This document shows positions 17,522 through 24,533 of a stretch of 38,599 nucleotides of DNA, piece by piece. Made by a program: the position numbers and the translations under genes. Positions within the stretch are counted from its first letter, which is position 1; every line of letters starts with the position of its first letter. Source of the stretch: Nitrospirales bacterium (lineage in GTDB: Bacteria > Nitrospirota > Nitrospiria > Nitrospirales > UBA8639). The stretch covers positions 1-38,599 of the forward strand of contig JAJDZI010000079.1 in the NCBI GenBank assembly GCA_022824735.1, in the 5' to 3' direction. The notes beneath the pieces are model-generated. The model did no database searches, had not been told where the DNA came from, and saw nothing but the letters and a program-made list of their open reading frames with translations.

Positions 17522-17693
17522 GGGAACCTCTGATCCCCGATTAAGAACGTCGAGGACAGGTTTATTGTGATAGCGGGATGTAGGGTAAGGCGTCCCGCAG
17601 CGAAACCCGAGTCTTATCAAATGAGATAGGTGAGGGTTGAGCGAGGACACAACGCAGCCATACGCCCGATAGTGCATTAAATCAGAGGTTCCC
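17522..17693. mobile_element. MITE-like element, copy 2 (inverted relative to copy 1)
   Basis: A 172-bp unit bounded by GGGAACCTCTGAT (17522-17534) and ATCAGAGGTTCCC (17681-17693), perfect 13-bp terminal inverted repeats. The interior is the reverse complement of copy 1 at 13095-13289 apart from scattered changes and two short gaps. An internal stem (GCGGGA and TCCCGC) lies near the left third. No clear target duplication is visible. It fills the gap between the convergent cytochrome and TraT-like genes, and its last base overlaps the TAG stop of the latter. Confidence 0.78.
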
Positions 17694-18481
17694 TAGAAAA
17701 GTCCGGCGAGAACCCTGGTCAGTCCGGCGGTGAGTTTCGGCGCGGCATCCTCATAGTCCAAATTCACTTGATTGGCCGTACTCATGACCCGGGTGCGGTA
17801 TCGCTTTTGATTCACGGTTTCATCAAACGTCTGTTTCACCTGAGCGCTGGTGCCTTGGGCGTTGTCGACGAAGGTCTGTTGTGTGCCGGTGACACCGTGT
17901 TTGGTCTTTTGGGAAAGCTGAACGTCGGTGATGGCGACATACGTCACGTCTTTGACCATGGCATTGGCCACGGTGCTGGCTAATCCTCCGGCGATGGCAC
18001 CGGCACCGGCGCCGATGCCCGCCCCGCGCCAGCCGTCAACGGCCGCGCCGATGGTGGCGCCGGTTGCCATGCCGCCGAGTACCCCGCCATAGCCGGCGTT
18101 CAGCGCGGCTTCGGCGGCACTCGGGTCGGTTTTCGTCACGCTGAGGACCTGGGCCTGGAGTGTGAAGTGGGCTTGGTCGGGATCTTCAGTGATTCGATAG
18201 CCCTTTGCGACAATAGCAGCCTTGATGGGTTGAACGATGTCAAAGTTGGGTTTATCGGACGTGTTCCGCACCTGGATGAAGATGGTCCGTTTGTCGGGAG
18301 AGACGGGGTCGAGGAAGATGGCGTCGCTCATTCTCGTTTGAACGTCGAGATTTGCTTTTGAGATCGACGTATGCACGGCCGCGCAGCCGTTGAGGAGGAC
18401 GAGGAGGGTGAGCCCGGAAAGGCAAGACAGTACAGGGCCGTAGAGATTTTGTCGATAAGAGTGACGTCCGGTGGTGGCCAT
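17693..18481 (-). CDS. TraT-like outer-membrane lipoprotein
   Basis: A 262-aa lipoprotein: basic N-terminus, hydrophobic LSGLTLLVLL, and the lipobox LLNGC with Cys33 as the lipid site. After it come AAVHTSISKANLDVQTRMSD and SPDKRTIFIQVRNTSD, the TraT opening. A Gly/Ala-rich segment (about 128-165, with GATIGAAVDGWRGAGIGAG) matches the membrane-associated stretch of TraT. The plasmid protein mediates surface exclusion and serum resistance, but chromosomal homologues are common and their role is unknown. The ATG follows GGAG at 7 nt. A strong promoter lies at 18558-18586. The stop codon abuts the MITE-like element. Confidence 0.85.
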   Translation of the reverse strand: MATTGRHSYRQNLYGPVLSCLSGLTLLVLLNGCAAVHTSISKANLDVQTRMSDAIFLDPVSPDKRTIFIQVRNTSDKPNFDIVQPIKAAIVAKGYRITEDPDQAHFTLQAQVLSVTKTDPSAAEAALNAGYGGVLGGMATGATIGAAVDGWRGAGIGAGAGAIAGGLASTVANAMVKDVTYVAITDVQLSQKTKHGVTGTQQTFVDNAQGTSAQVKQTFDETVNQKRYRTRVMSTANQVNLDYEDAAPKLTAGLTRVLAGLF

Positions 18482-18586: not shown

Positions 18587-18777
18587 TGGCGTTGCTCATG
18601 GACGGCGTGCGGCAATGCCACGGCAGCGGCCGGGTTCGCCTTAAAGGCCAGCATGGCGACGAGACTCTGCGCGACGTATTCCGGAATGCGTCCGCCGCCC
18701 GGTGAGCCGGTCAGTGCCATCGGCTCCCCGTTCAAGTAGACGATGGTCGGCGTCATGGACGAGCGCGAAAAAGGCGT
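18583..18777 (-). pseudogene. ggt: C-terminal remnant of gamma-glutamyltranspeptidase
   Basis: Sixty-four open codons end at TGA 18585-18583. They read RSSMTPTIVYLNGEPMALTG, then SPGGGRIPEYVAQSLVAML, and a typical NPAAAVALPHAVHEQ end. These are the SSM(S/T)PTIV and GSPGG blocks of the small subunit of gamma-glutamyltransferase. An in-frame TGA lies just upstream (18780-18778), and the remaining 500 or so residues are missing. It is too short to function. It lies directly beside the accessory cassette that ends at 18844, so the loss may be linked to that insertion. I did not find the other part of the gene on the far side of the cassette. Confidence 0.75.
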
Positions 18778-18843: not shown

Positions 18844-21800
18844 TCAAGGCTTGGAGACATCAATCACGCAGACCGCTATCTTGAACTTTTCCTCAGCCGA
18901 AAGGGTATTCAGTAGACGTTCTTGCAGTTCGTACGCGCTTGTGGGGCGTTTGCCGGACGGCGGCATCTGACAGCCCTCCTCGCCAAACCAGAATACCAGA
19001 TAGATTCCATAACCATCCGCGCCTGGGTCGCGGGTGTATTTTGCGATCAATTGTTCCCGGATTGAACGCCACAGTTCCCGGTGATTACTCCTCTTGATCT
19101 CCACTGGCACGTTGAAGTCGCCATACGTCACGCGAATATCAGCCCGTTTGTCGTCCGCGTAGCGGCCCTCCGGCTGGGCGCCGATATCCAATGGTGCCAG
19201 CTTGAGTCGTAAATCCGACAGCAGCGCGTCCCTGCAAAGGTCTTCATGCTTAGGCGTGTCAGGCTGACTTGGGGAATCCATATTCCAATACTGACGCCAG
19301 TCCGAAGTATTCCCATCGTGGATTCGTCTTCCCATATCGAACAGGATATCCATCGTCAGGGCCGCCAAATCGGCGGCGTTCGCGGGGCTCCGCTTGTCCA
19401 GAGTCTGAAGTACCGTTGGGATGTCCTGATGCCGGAAACTCGCTTCTCGCCGTGTGGTGTTCTGCCGATATGCTGCGTCGATGAGATTAGATCGCCAAGG
19501 CTGTAGAGACTCATCAGATGACAGCGATTCGAGCGTTAGTGTCCCATCCCGTGATGGATCGGCAGCAATCCGGTTGATGAGTCCAGTTACAAGGGCTGAA
19601 GCCCCCCACCGAGCCCAATCGGTTGAGAATTCTCTCGAAGGTGAGTAATCTGGATATGGTCGGTAAGAAACCCCAACCAGTCGAATCAGCAATTCCAAAT
19701 CCTGAACGCCAAAGCGGTCAAGTAAAGTTGACGGAGAAGCGGTCAAGAATTCAGCTAGATGCCGGATTCGTCGCTCATAGCCGGATACCAACGTTACAAG
19801 TGTCTCGCGGTACGACGCGGGTGAAGAAAGAAGTCCGGCGGCCAGCCAGTAGACACGTTGGGTCACGTTCAGGCTTTGGAAAGAGAGCTTACGTTCAATT
19901 AGTTGCTCGAATGCTTTCTTCGCTTCCTTCTCAGAATGAAGCAGGGCGGCTATGAGGAGAACGTTCAGCAAACTAAGTTGTGATGACGTACATCGCACGG
20001 GAAATAGGTCTAACAAGGGCCGGGCTGCCAGACGGGCGATCACCTCGTGTTCTTTCGAGGCAGCAAGCTCACGGGCGTCAGCAAATCGGTTCTTCCCGCT
20101 ACGCAGTTGGGAACGAACGAACTTGATGAGCACATCAGAAACCACATCCGGGCGGCCAGCCAGTAACCGTCTATACCAATGCGGCCTCTCACCTCTATAA
20201 TAGGGGAGTGCCCCGCTATTGCAATAAAAGGCAATGGCTTGCCTCATCTGTCTTTCGTTGAGAAACGGTTCTTTATCAGGTTCGGAGAGTTCTTCCAGGC
20301 TGGCCAGGAAGGGAAGTTCCAGGTAATGTCTCCGGTTTCCGGTACTCAGACGTATGATTTCAGCATCGCTTGGAACGTCACTACGATTGACCGAATTCCG
20401 AAGAGCAACCAGCACAGTCTCAACCAAAACCGCGTCGTCTCCAAGAAGGTTGTGCAGCCGGTCCGTGGAGGTTTCCCCGTCAAAGAGTCTATTTCTATTG
20501 ATAGGATCGCCGAAATATGCCGCAGCCAAATCGTTAAGCAGGGACGGTGGGCATCGATTCTCGCGTAGTGCGGCGACGCTTTTCTTCACGAGATCCCGAA
20601 ATTCCTGTTGCTCTTTACTTGTCTCTTTTTTAGACTCTTCCCTGGGCGCCTTTTCCCTGTTCTTCGATTTTTTCCGCTTGGACAGGCGTTCTCTGAAAGC
20701 CTTCTCAAGGGTCGGATGGGTTACAAGGCGCTCTTTCACGATTTCCCAGGTCAAACCTTCGTCATGCCAGCGAGCATCCAAAGCATGTGCGACCTCGCGG
20801 ATGTACCAGAGAGCAGCACTTTCGTCGATTGCGTTTGTCGCCTGTTCAAGGCACCAGGAACCGAAATCCGGTGGCGGCGTAGCATCAAATAATAACCTGT
20901 GGCGCATCATGCCAACGCATACATCGAACAGTTGCTTCCCCCGGCAATTTTCGACGCACGAGGCGATCATTGCTTTATGGGTCTCGGGATGCTGGCTCAA
21001 CCAAGCACGAATGCCTTCAGCGCCGTCTGGAGGGACCCATCTTTCAAGATCGTTCCATGCCGAGACCTTCAACCAGGAGAAGAGCTTCCCCGGAGCAATT
21101 TCTTTTTGAGCGTCATTCAGGAAACGGACCAACAAGTTCGAAGGCAGATGGTATATTGGATTTCGTGTATCAGTAGGGTCCTTCCGAATTTTCTCCGACA
21201 ATTCATCGGATCGCGCAACAAGGATATCCAGGAGTTCCGTACATTGTGCGTTCGTCGAGTTCTCCACCACGTGGCCGGTCCAAAAACGCTTATACATACC
21301 GAAGTGATCACGACGTTTCGGTAGACGCAAATATCGAAGAATTTCCGCTGCAGACAGCTTCGAAGGATAAAGCGCGCACAACAGTTGACCCAACAATTGA
21401 TCGTCCGAATCAGGCACTGAGCCGTCATATACGTCTGCCAGCAACGTCATGAGTTTTTCGCCGATTTGTTCGCTGTTTATGCCGTGATGGAGAATCGTAA
21501 CGAGGGCGCGCTGCCTGATACTTGGCCGCCAACTATCGTCCTTGACCATTTCCAGCACAACGTCCGTTAGTTCCGGAATGGCCGGACCGTGCCGGAGCGC
21601 TTCGACCAGACATGCGACGAGTCTTTGGTGGGTGTCGTCCCGCACCGAACTCGTAAAAGCTTCTCTAAAAACAGGCTCCATGTCGGGTGTTGCAAGATCA
21701 CCAAAGCGGGAATCCATCATCTCCAACGATCCGAAGAACCAGGGATTCCGTTGCGATTCACGATACAGGCCGTCTATCAACCTGCGCTTCTCGTCGATGG

Positions 21801-22950
21801 AGAAGTCTCTGACGTCGCCGTAGAGAACAGTTCCAATCGGGTCCCGGTCGATGATTTCCATCCGGCTTGTTTTGCTGGTCGTTGCGAGCCATGCCGAGAG
21901 ACCTCGCAACTCCGAAACAACCCCGCCGTCGTCACCCGTCATCAAGGCGAGAATACGTCCGATCGGCAAGCCGTTTTCGATCAATCCGGCAAGGTATCGG
22001 CCACCGAGGAACTCCGCGATTTGCCGGTGAACCGCGGCTGCTCGGCCTTCGGAGGGGGCCTCGAACAGCTTGGTGCCCAGCACGTAGCGAAGCACTTCCT
22101 GGTCCTCACGGGATACCTGTTCCAACCCTGGGTATTCGTCGTTGCTCTCGGTACCGGACAGTGCGTATCCCGCGCCGCCGGTCAGGAGTTGAACAGCGCA
22201 AAGCCGTCCTGCCGCGTCCAGCAAAATGGAGATGTCAACGCTAACCGGTCTCGCCACTCGATGTTCTTGGTTGTGCTCGCGAAGGAGTGTCCGGCAGGCC
22301 ATGGCGAACGTTTGCATCCGAGTGGACGGCCACTCGCCACCGCGTACAGCCTCAACAAGCATTTCCAGCATTTTCGGGTTTGCGAGCAGGGTTTCCAACC
22401 CTCGCTGGTGGGCTTCGCTAACGAATTTTTCCGGGTCATCGACTTTCAGATTGTCGCGCAAAATTTTGATAATGTCCTTTTCAGTGAGAGGATCGAGGCG
22501 CAGGACCGTAACGTGGCCGTCGCGCGATACGGTTTTCAGATTATCTCTGTCATTGGCGCCGAACCAGTCGGCCTCACGGCAGGAAAGCCGGAACCGCGGG
22601 CGGCCCAGTCGGTTGAGCTTGCCGCGTATTCCGTCCAGTGGTGTGCGTCCATCTGTTGACCCCGCCCGCTTTTCGTCGAGGCCGTCAATAAACAGTGTCG
22701 TGTTGTGCCATTCCGGTCGATCATCGAACGTGATGAAGTCTCGGGCGGTGACATAGCACGCCTTTAAGCGATCAGCTTCCTGTTTGAACACCGCGGTCTT
22801 GCCCGCACCGGCTGGGCCTAACAGTATGTAAGCATCGGCATTCCTAAATTCTTCGAAAAACAGACGAGTGCGTTCACTCTTGTCGGCGTTTTGTGCGACT
22901 TGGCCGTTTTCGCCGATTTCCGTACACGTGCGTTGAACAAAATCAGTCAT
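18844..22950 (-). CDS. Giant STAND/NACHT-like NTPase with C-terminal PD-(D/E)XK-type nuclease motif
   Basis: A 1368-aa protein. The N-terminus has a P-loop, GPAGAGKT (45-52), Walker B LFIDGLDE (86-93) with the extra acids typical of NACHT/STAND ATPases, and RFRLSCREADW (119-129) in the sensor position. Residues about 250-1230 are mostly helical and may form repeats. A charged linker rich in Lys and Glu lies near 750-790. The C-terminus has the spacing of a restriction-like nuclease: Asp1271 in RADIRV, Glu1284-x-Lys1286 in VPVEIKRS, then Gln1300 and Tyr1305 like the RecB-type Q-motif. Such architectures are common in antiphage proteins, but here ATPase is first and nuclease last, opposite to typical Avs proteins. 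Its ATG overlaps the stop of the upstream ATPase (ATGA). Family naming is from motifs only. Confidence 0.8.
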   Translation of the reverse strand: MTDFVQRTCTEIGENGQVAQNADKSERTRLFFEEFRNADAYILLGPAGAGKTAVFKQEADRLKACYVTARDFITFDDRPEWHNTTLFIDGLDEKRAGSTDGRTPLDGIRGKLNRLGRPRFRLSCREADWFGANDRDNLKTVSRDGHVTVLRLDPLTEKDIIKILRDNLKVDDPEKFVSEAHQRGLETLLANPKMLEMLVEAVRGGEWPSTRMQTFAMACRTLLREHNQEHRVARPVSVDISILLDAAGRLCAVQLLTGGAGYALSGTESNDEYPGLEQVSREDQEVLRYVLGTKLFEAPSEGRAAAVHRQIAEFLGGRYLAGLIENGLPIGRILALMTGDDGGVVSELRGLSAWLATTSKTSRMEIIDRDPIGTVLYGDVRDFSIDEKRRLIDGLYRESQRNPWFFGSLEMMDSRFGDLATPDMEPVFREAFTSSVRDDTHQRLVACLVEALRHGPAIPELTDVVLEMVKDDSWRPSIRQRALVTILHHGINSEQIGEKLMTLLADVYDGSVPDSDDQLLGQLLCALYPSKLSAAEILRYLRLPKRRDHFGMYKRFWTGHVVENSTNAQCTELLDILVARSDELSEKIRKDPTDTRNPIYHLPSNLLVRFLNDAQKEIAPGKLFSWLKVSAWNDLERWVPPDGAEGIRAWLSQHPETHKAMIASCVENCRGKQLFDVCVGMMRHRLLFDATPPPDFGSWCLEQATNAIDESAALWYIREVAHALDARWHDEGLTWEIVKERLVTHPTLEKAFRERLSKRKKSKNREKAPREESKKETSKEQQEFRDLVKKSVAALRENRCPPSLLNDLAAAYFGDPINRNRLFDGETSTDRLHNLLGDDAVLVETVLVALRNSVNRSDVPSDAEIIRLSTGNRRHYLELPFLASLEELSEPDKEPFLNERQMRQAIAFYCNSGALPYYRGERPHWYRRLLAGRPDVVSDVLIKFVRSQLRSGKNRFADARELAASKEHEVIARLAARPLLDLFPVRCTSSQLSLLNVLLIAALLHSEKEAKKAFEQLIERKLSFQSLNVTQRVYWLAAGLLSSPASYRETLVTLVSGYERRIRHLAEFLTASPSTLLDRFGVQDLELLIRLVGVSYRPYPDYSPSREFSTDWARWGASALVTGLINRIAADPSRDGTLTLESLSSDESLQPWRSNLIDAAYRQNTTRREASFRHQDIPTVLQTLDKRSPANAADLAALTMDILFDMGRRIHDGNTSDWRQYWNMDSPSQPDTPKHEDLCRDALLSDLRLKLAPLDIGAQPEGRYADDKRADIRVTYGDFNVPVEIKRSNHRELWRSIREQLIAKYTRDPGADGYGIYLVFWFGEEGCQMPPSGKRPTSAYELQERLLNTLSAEEKFKIAVCVIDVSKP

Positions 22951-24269
22951 GACTGCTTAAACCAATCCATAGCGGGGGCCGATAGAAATTCCGAAATCGA
23001 AATGCCGCCTTCACCGACAAGTAAGGAACGCCGCGGTGAAAAGCGCGTTGCAAATTCCTCCAAGCCAGCCGTATTCCCTCTACGCGACCCGCTTTTAACT
23101 TCCAGCGCCACGAGCTTCCGTCCGTGTTCCAGGACGAAATCCACCTCAAGGGATCCTTTCCGCCAATAATGAAGTCGCACCTCTGGGGTTCCCGTATTGA
23201 ACAGGTGTGCGCCAACGGCACTTTCGACCAATCGTCCCCAGAAACTTCGATCCGTTTTCGCCTCTTCGAACGTGTAACCGGAATGGACCGACATGAGCGC
23301 GGTGTTGAGCACGTTGAGTTTGGGACTGGATGCCCTGCGGCGGTACGCGCCTCCGGCATATTTGCCAAGTCCCGTTAACAGCCCCGCTTTTGACAGCAGA
23401 TCCAGATAGCGCGCCAAAGTCGTGGTGTTTCCGGCATCCTGAATCTGGCCAAGCATCTTGTCGTATGCCAGGATCTGACCGGACATTTCGGCACCGAACT
23501 CGAACAGCCTTTTGAGGAGCGCCGGCTTGTCCACTCGCTCCATGGCGAGAATATCCCGTTCGATATTCGGTTCGACAATGGAACCCAAAATGTATTCGCG
23601 CCAGCGCTGCTGCTCTTGGATCAGGGATGCTGTACCCGGGTATCCGCCGAAGTAAATGTACTGGTCGAGGTCGAACCCGAATGCCTCGGACATCTCGGCA
23701 AACGACCAGTGCGGAAGGCGGATGGTTTCAAAGCGACCCAGCATGCTTTCGCTCAACCCTCTCTGCATGAGCAGTGGTGCGGACCCCAACACGACCACGT
23801 GCAGAGGGAGGCCTTCATGTCGATCGGCATCCCATAAGCCTTTCACGGCCTCTGACCAATTTGGAATTTTCTGGATTTCGTCGAATACCAGCACGAACCC
23901 CCGTTCCGACCGTTTGGCGGCTCTTCTGGCCTGCTCCCACTGGCGCGTGAGCCAAGTCTCATCTCTCATACCCGAGATTGGTGCAGTCTCTTCGGGATCG
24001 TCAGAGGGTAGGGCAGTGGAAGAGATCCAGGAGGGATGATCTTGCCCTTCCCCGGTCCCAATAAGTGCAGACCAAGGAGTTTCAAGTGTAGTTGACTGTG
24101 GCTTGTCGACGGGGAGATATTTGTGCGGACGGTTGATCTGTTCCAAGGCTTGCAGCACGAGCGTGGTTTTGCCGACCTGACGCGGTCCGGCAACAACGAT
24201 CAGCCATTTTGGATTCTCGCGCAGACGGCTCAAAAGTGTCGAAATTTGCGCACGCTTGAAGCTACCCAT
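22947..24269 (-). CDS. AAA_14/DUF4143 ATPase
   Basis: A 440-aa protein of the COG1373 type. Walker A is GPRQVGKTT (28-36) and Walker B is VLVFDEIQKIPNW (DE at 130-131). A winged-helix region (LARYLDLLSKAGLLTGL) follows, then the DUF4143 end with Asp377 in EVDF and Glu390-x-Lys392 in LEVKSG, again a nuclease-like fold. These ATPases are frequent in mobile and defence regions, and their targets are unclear. The ATG at 24269 is chosen over the one at 24275 because the latter lies in the likely -10 box and transcription should begin at about 24269, giving a leaderless mRNA. It is the first gene of a two-gene operon with the STAND-nuclease protein. Confidence 0.85.
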   Translation of the reverse strand: MGSFKRAQISTLLSRLRENPKWLIVVAGPRQVGKTTLVLQALEQINRPHKYLPVDKPQSTTLETPWSALIGTGEGQDHPSWISSTALPSDDPEETAPISGMRDETWLTRQWEQARRAAKRSERGFVLVFDEIQKIPNWSEAVKGLWDADRHEGLPLHVVVLGSAPLLMQRGLSESMLGRFETIRLPHWSFAEMSEAFGFDLDQYIYFGGYPGTASLIQEQQRWREYILGSIVEPNIERDILAMERVDKPALLKRLFEFGAEMSGQILAYDKMLGQIQDAGNTTTLARYLDLLSKAGLLTGLGKYAGGAYRRRASSPKLNVLNTALMSVHSGYTFEEAKTDRSFWGRLVESAVGAHLFNTGTPEVRLHYWRKGSLEVDFVLEHGRKLVALEVKSGSRRGNTAGLEEFATRFSPRRSLLVGEGGISISEFLSAPAMDWFKQS

Positions 24270-24273
24270 TTCC

Positions 24274-24317
24274 ATATATTACGCTATTGAGTAAATTTAC
24301 TCAATAGCGTAATATAT
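24274..24317. promoter_or_regulatory. Perfect 44-bp palindrome with mirror-image promoters
   Basis: Every base pairs across the centre at 24295/24296. Each arm carries half of TTGAGT, a 17-nt spacer and TAATAT. On the minus strand this puts -35 at 24304-24299 and -10 at 24281-24276, driving the ATPase operon. On the plus strand the same boxes fall at 24287-24292 and 24310-24315. It may also be an operator for a dimeric regulator or form a cruciform. Palindrome: seen directly. Promoter: inferred from box match and spacing. Confidence 0.7.
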
Positions 24318-24533
24318 TTTGAATGAGGAGCCGACATAAAGCTGCTCAAGTGGATGCTGGGGGTCAACCTGGCGTTCTCCTTGGCGATCTTGGTCATGCT
24401 TCTACGGCCGCTCGCGGCTTGATTCTTGCTGCGGAGGCTTCTTCAACGACAATCCGGCTCACCGGCATTGCTCATCGTTTCTCCTTTCGACTAGACGCTC
24501 AAGACAGGCTTGGTTAAAAGCCCCGCTCGTTTG
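24318..24533. other. Noncoding gap right of the accessory cassette
   Basis: A rightward promoter from the palindrome would read into this stretch, where an ATG at 24323 opens a 64-codon frame of unconvincing composition. A short hydrophobic frame (24354-24422, with LAFSLAILVMLL) looks like a membrane segment but has a stop just upstream. On the minus strand an ATG at 24475 has a very good AAAGGAG ahead, yet it stops after ten codons. These look like leftovers of broken genes. Nothing here can be named. Confidence 0.35.

Follow-up and report, generated by a model that had tools for sequence, protein, structure and literature searches.

The locus

The window analysed here is a stretch of 38,599 nucleotides (contig JAJDZI010000079.1) from a Nitrospirales bacterium, whose genome is represented by 2.3 Mb in 151 contigs and whose nearest relatives are Nitrospira/Nitrospirales metagenome-assembled genomes. 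On its minus strand, between a bioF-like gene and a remnant of ggt and with housekeeping genes around, lie two adjacent genes. The first to be read, P0002 (22947-24275, minus strand), encodes a 442-residue AAA_14-DUF4143 ATPase which belongs to the PADLOC candidate system PDC-S01, while the second, P0001 (18844-22950, minus strand), encodes a 1368-residue NACHT/STAND protein, similar to the antiphage protein EruA according to the NCBIfam model NF058535, structure models and fold searches, and ending in a predicted PD-(D/E)XK nuclease. Both genes are joined by a 4-nt start/stop overlap, ATGA, and the translational coupling of an AAA_14/DUF4143 ATPase to a 1368-residue protein, which an earlier reading of the sequence alone had proposed, agrees with the coordinates and with Pfam. 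In addition, a perfect 44-bp palindrome with 22-nt arms and no loop (24274-24317) touches the start codon of P0002. The sequence-only reading had closed the cassette at 24317, which is the outer edge of this palindrome, with no mention of the element. The palindrome is what is new here, the receptor itself being one more example of an antiphage family already described.

The predicted receptor-nuclease P0001

On the evidence of profile matches, P0001 is related to EruA and falls just short of formal assignment to it; it is not an unknown protein. Its residues 23-1366 match NF058535 ('NACHT domain-containing antiphage protein EruA') at 957.2 bits with a cut-off of 1000, covering profile positions 9-1318 of 1318 in identical domain order: NACHT first, PD-(D/E)XK last, and the same catalytic residues. 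The same model is matched by all 15 proteins of a comparison set, whose members other than P0001 are 19-75% identical to it, and its cut-off is passed by the proteins of Paracoccus (1321 bits), Bradyrhizobium (1190 bits), the distant locus L094 (1032 bits) and G081 (1012 bits), the last being a genome from the source organism's own order within Nitrospirota. The sister model HyoA (NF058534) is homologous over residues 135-785 only, at 192 bits, far from its cut-off of 1200. In Pfam nothing was found above cut-off for P0001; the NACHT family (PF05729) gave no match for P0001 and a weak one in 2 of the 15 relatives. The PADLOC models, Avs included, gave no match for P0001; a sequence search for solved relatives returned nothing significant for P0001 or for the P0002 subfamily; and the Pantoea EruA gene, used as a DNA query, found no E. 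coli relatives.

The residues which the sequence-only reading had named, those of Walker A and B and of a D...ExK...Q..Y pattern, were correctly identified and are invariant across the 15 relatives. Walker A (residues 45-52) to Walker B (residues 86-93) span 22672-22818 on the minus strand, and the invariant positions of the NACHT part are G50, K51, D89, D92, E93, R125, H308 and E313. We take R125 to be the downstream arginine of NACHT, and H308/E313 the H-x4-E motif of the winged-helix part. A structure model of residues 1-1120 (predicted local distance difference test, pLDDT, 79) shows an NTPase followed by helical repeats, and its best PDB matches are NLRC4 chains (10/11, best E 8.7e-7) and then HEAT-type proteins/karyopherin. 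By its conserved residues and this NLR-like model, P0001 is a STAND/NACHT NTPase. The all-helical, HEAT-like middle (about residues 400-1130; 19561-21753, minus strand), recognised by the model, the HEAT/karyopherin matches and ortholog identity, is the presumed sensor and includes the least conserved part of the protein.

The C-terminal domain (about residues 1236-1368; 18847-19245, minus strand) contains the invariant residues E1236, E1261, D1271, E1284, K1286, Q1300 and Y1305. A model of residues 1040-1368 (pLDDT 79) closes with a helix, three strands, a helix and a strand, that is, the PD-(D/E)XK topology, and by motif and model the D...ExK...Q site sits on this alpha-beta-beta-beta-alpha-beta core. 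The PDB matches to the model are weak (best E 0.024) and mostly of the PD-(D/E)XK type, including PspGI, McrBC, Can1/Can2, SfsA and Hjc. A PD-(D/E)XK nuclease is thus predicted strongly by motif and moderately by fold.

As in the bacterial NACHT (bNACHT) and Avs proteins, a STAND ATPase would act as infection receptor with a nuclease as effector. Nevertheless, those systems carry the effector at the N-terminus and the sensor at the C-terminus (PMC12169576), whereas the nuclease of P0001 is C-terminal, and by this order and the PADLOC result it does not fit the Avs systems. The sequence-only reading had contrasted the effector-last order with that of Avs proteins; as an anomaly the order is not supported, for it is found in all 15 aligned EruA relatives, and novelty on this count is ruled out, the order being general to a family which NCBIfam names antiphage. 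Other points of that interpretation are supported: the ATPase is of the STAND/NACHT type and has a nuclease at its C-terminus, the two genes do form an operon, and a role in defence is plausible. With regard to animal NLRs, the best match of the N-terminal model is NLRC4, but the repeats of P0001 are HEAT-like and not leucine-rich, and its effector is a fused nuclease.

Among four Nitrospira orthologs, EruA is under purifying selection (dN/dS 0.30). It is least conserved at residues 501-800 (58-62% identity), and most conserved at residues 301-400 (84%) and in the nuclease (83%). A sensor would fit this pattern, in which a variable middle is flanked by a conserved motor and a conserved effector, but is not proved by it. 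For P0002 dN/dS is 0.15, tighter than the 0.21 of bioF (from three sequences).

P0002 and its palindrome

P0002 is matched by DUF4143 (93 bits) and AAA_14 (80 bits) in Pfam, and by the PDC-S01 model of PADLOC (PDLC04791) at 548 bits, which places it in PDC-S01. Its Walker motifs are kept (G35, K36, D132, E133), and its C-terminal end has an invariant nuclease-like set, E377/D379...E392-V-K394, as had been noticed from the sequence. P0002 shares with PDC-S01 an ATPase and a PD-(D/E)XK-type C-terminus. Listed as a single-gene system, PDC-S01 is reported to rank fourth in frequency among prokaryotic defence systems and is a candidate, validation being pending for most PDCs (PMC12988326); in contrast, P0002 is the first gene of an operon that also contains EruA and is preceded by a conserved palindrome. 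About nine other PDC-S01 copies exist in the source genome, mostly remote, and in three remote paralogs (L007, L009, L012) a repeat or palindrome likewise adjoins or covers the start codon, with a sequence that differs from one paralog to the next. A single-sequence query with P0002 found none in viral contigs.

The palindrome has the core TGAGTAAATTTACTCA at 24288-24303. Its arm has no other copy in the window, where none is expected by chance, and in the orthologs the element is retained with few changes. A putative promoter (24294-24323, minus strand) is made up of a -10 hexamer TAAATT (24294-24299) inside the palindrome and a weak -35 hexamer TTCAAA (24318-24323), with an 18-nt spacer. Most members of the P0002 subfamily have TAAAAT or TAAATT inside the palindrome and a TTGACA-like hexamer 17-18 nt upstream, and in many the -35 is TTGACA/TTTACA at the same 18-nt spacing as that of P0002. 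Since this promoter-like pair of hexamers recurs over the element, the palindrome probably overlies the promoter of P0002. Two other explanations for the element were rejected: a terminator, as it is AT-rich, without a loop and with a -10-like box inside, and the terminal repeat of a mobile element, as there is no second copy in the window and the core stands at the 5' end only.

Of 392 Nitrospirota genomes, 31 contain the core, TGAGTAA-NN-TTACTCA, and 1 contains the reversed control pattern; occurrences of the core are nearly confined to the 5' ends of genes of P0002's PDC-S01 subfamily. In an automatic test, 26 of 31 inspected sites had the beginning of a PDC-S01-type reading frame close by, counting L181, with a remote PDC-S01 match only, and L160, a C-terminal remnant; by inspection the same holds for L154 and L161. 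It does not hold for L157, L164 and a second site in L162. At least two half-sites within 100 bp upstream are present in 23 of 35 members and in 1.9% of random segments, a conservative comparison because the random segments come from the same short loci and include some true sites. Related repeats exist further afield, in the form of three direct copies of a ATTGAGTAAAATT-like sequence in Bacteroides and a related palindrome in Collinsella, and some paralogs have other palindromes. In viral contigs, the 18-bp pattern gave 36 stretches, a raw count that may be no higher than chance.

Two single sites may be mentioned separately. The second copy in L162 (position 2583; G019:C100:37025) stands before a HicB-HicA-like toxin-antitoxin pair, with a PDC-S01 gene next downstream of that pair, and at G011:C1:1865911-1866286 a palindrome lies beside a C-terminal PDC-S01 remnant, the gene being lost and the site retained.

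Inheritance and genomic context of the pair

The pairing of EruA with PDC-S01 is real, older than the genus, and uncommon. Of 14 congeneric genomes, the 4 that have EruA all have an ortholog of P0002 (86% or more), and the remaining ten all lack it. In all four congeners the pair adjoins bioF at one site, so that they represent one shared event, and not four. Beyond the genus, in L094 a PDC-S01 gene (53% identity to P0002) is immediately followed by an EruA gene whose product has 30% identity to P0001. In trees, this PDC-S01 is sister to the paired copies of the genus (99/98), with all sampled single PDC-S01 genes outside, and the EruAs of L094, L093 and the genus form one clade (100/99). The spacing of the pair, a 4-nt overlap or zero gap, has been kept across this divergence. 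The sequence-only reading had named two outcomes that would speak against it, namely no ATPase or nuclease fold and a pair never seen elsewhere; the models show an NLR-like and, more weakly, a nuclease-like fold, and the pair recurs, so that it was not refuted. Nevertheless, the pair is not a general cassette: when 34 loci containing EruA or its distant relatives were searched by profile, PDC-S01 was near EruA only in the genus, L094 and Paracoccus, most EruA genes standing alone. The Paracoccus case, on a conjugative plasmid (L072, 5899-11129), has EruA followed downstream by a PDC-S01 gene of another subfamily, apparently an independent association.

As for the surroundings of EruA in general, plasmid EruA genes are nearly always single genes. 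The defence neighbours include Ppl and Abi (Pantoea), TrlF, TIR proteins, AbiE and SIR2, and some loci have no obvious defence neighbour. In L094 type I restriction-modification genes lie beside EruA, a WYL-domain gene and HsdM/HsdS coming next after it, and in L093 EruA is the single cargo gene of a P2-like prophage, where it sits between tail gene D and replication gene A. Such relatives, adjoining defence genes or riding a prophage, support a defence role for the family.

On the downstream side of the cassette, tblastn located a 59-residue ggt remnant (18589-18765, minus strand; ggt residues 454-512), as the sequence-only reading had indicated by a broken ggt, and the same place in relatives holds an intact ggt. 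The decay is incidental: its causation by insertion of the cassette was ruled out, since another congener has both the cassette and an intact ggt. Further downstream, a TraT-family surface-exclusion lipoprotein is encoded (17693-18481, minus strand; Pfam TraT, 249 bits), and a TraT gene is at the site in one congener too (G012, L061). In two congeners, fragments of the 3' end of bioF are duplicated between bioF and the cassette (L060, 1842-1943; L062, 8014-8151), as after integration. No Rfam RNA element was found in the region.

Proposed mechanism and alternatives

The reading we favour, at a probability of roughly 0.55, is a two-gene anti-phage operon in which an EruA-type receptor-nuclease is accompanied by a PDC-S01 ATPase that controls its own operon, EruA included. 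In such a system, the HEAT-like middle of P0001 would sense an infection signal, the ATP-loaded NACHT module would oligomerise, and the clustered PD-(D/E)XK domains would cut DNA, halting the phage or the cell. P0002 itself would recognise the palindrome covering its own promoter and start, and would thereby set the dose of the operon, EruA being reached via translational coupling. The simplest and most likely account on present sequence comparisons is that P0002 regulates the operon it shares with EruA by binding the palindrome, as site and protein subfamily are tightly linked. The parts directly supported are the domain order, the active-site conservation, the NLR-like and weaker nuclease-like folds, the family by profile, the co-inheritance of the pair and the linkage of palindrome and PDC-S01.

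Several facts weigh against this reading. P0001 falls 43 bits short of the EruA equivalog cut-off, and the E-values of the nuclease fold searches are 0.02 or worse. In the distant pair of L094 the palindrome is present in partial form only. Many PDC-S01 genes have the same palindrome without EruA, so that the element is tied to PDC-S01 and not to the pair, and since EruA genes mostly stand alone and presumably work without PDC-S01, P0002 is not required family-wide.

These last points lead to the main rival, in which PDC-S01 is an independent defence or selfish gene that brought its own promoter ahead of a single-gene EruA, with shared transcription and no functional link. Both families usually occur alone, PDC-S01 being described as single-gene and very common (PMC12988326), and the palindrome accompanies it with or without EruA. 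Nevertheless, a pair held at an overlap or zero gap at only 30% EruA identity, paired PDC-S01 genes forming their own clade, and no congener retaining only one of the two orthologs make this rival rather unlikely, if the most serious. Less probable still, P0002 could be a second ATPase-nuclease in a defence complex, binding EruA as co-sensor or co-effector. Its Walker motifs and nuclease-like set (E377/D379/E392/K394), its strong purifying selection and its co-inheritance with EruA would suit such a partner, but most lineages have EruA as a single gene and the conserved palindrome suggests DNA binding instead. Finally, a role outside defence, for example in the control of plasmids or of conjugation in the source lineage, is very improbable in spite of the housekeeping surroundings, the lack of a defence island and the adjoining TraT-family protein, given that relatives repeatedly have defence genes as neighbours or travel in a P2-like prophage and that the curated name of NF058535 is antiphage.

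Self-regulation of the operon by P0002, the reading preferred here, can be extended into a wider and rather speculative proposal: PDC-S01 ATPases may be self-addressed DNA-binding switches, each reading a repeat that overlies its promoter, and in some lineages the switch may have become wired to an EruA receptor, so that a phage disturbing host DNA or transcription would free the switch and raise EruA.

Implications

The locus is an example of a PDC-S01-type gene coupled to an NLR-like nuclease. Moreover, in many families of Nitrospirota a conserved palindromic element covers the putative promoter of one PDC-S01 subfamily, with related repeats in Bacteroides and Collinsella. For PDC-S01, a very common candidate defence gene, the palindrome offers a concrete candidate binding site and a mechanistic handle, and this operator-like element is the part most worth following.

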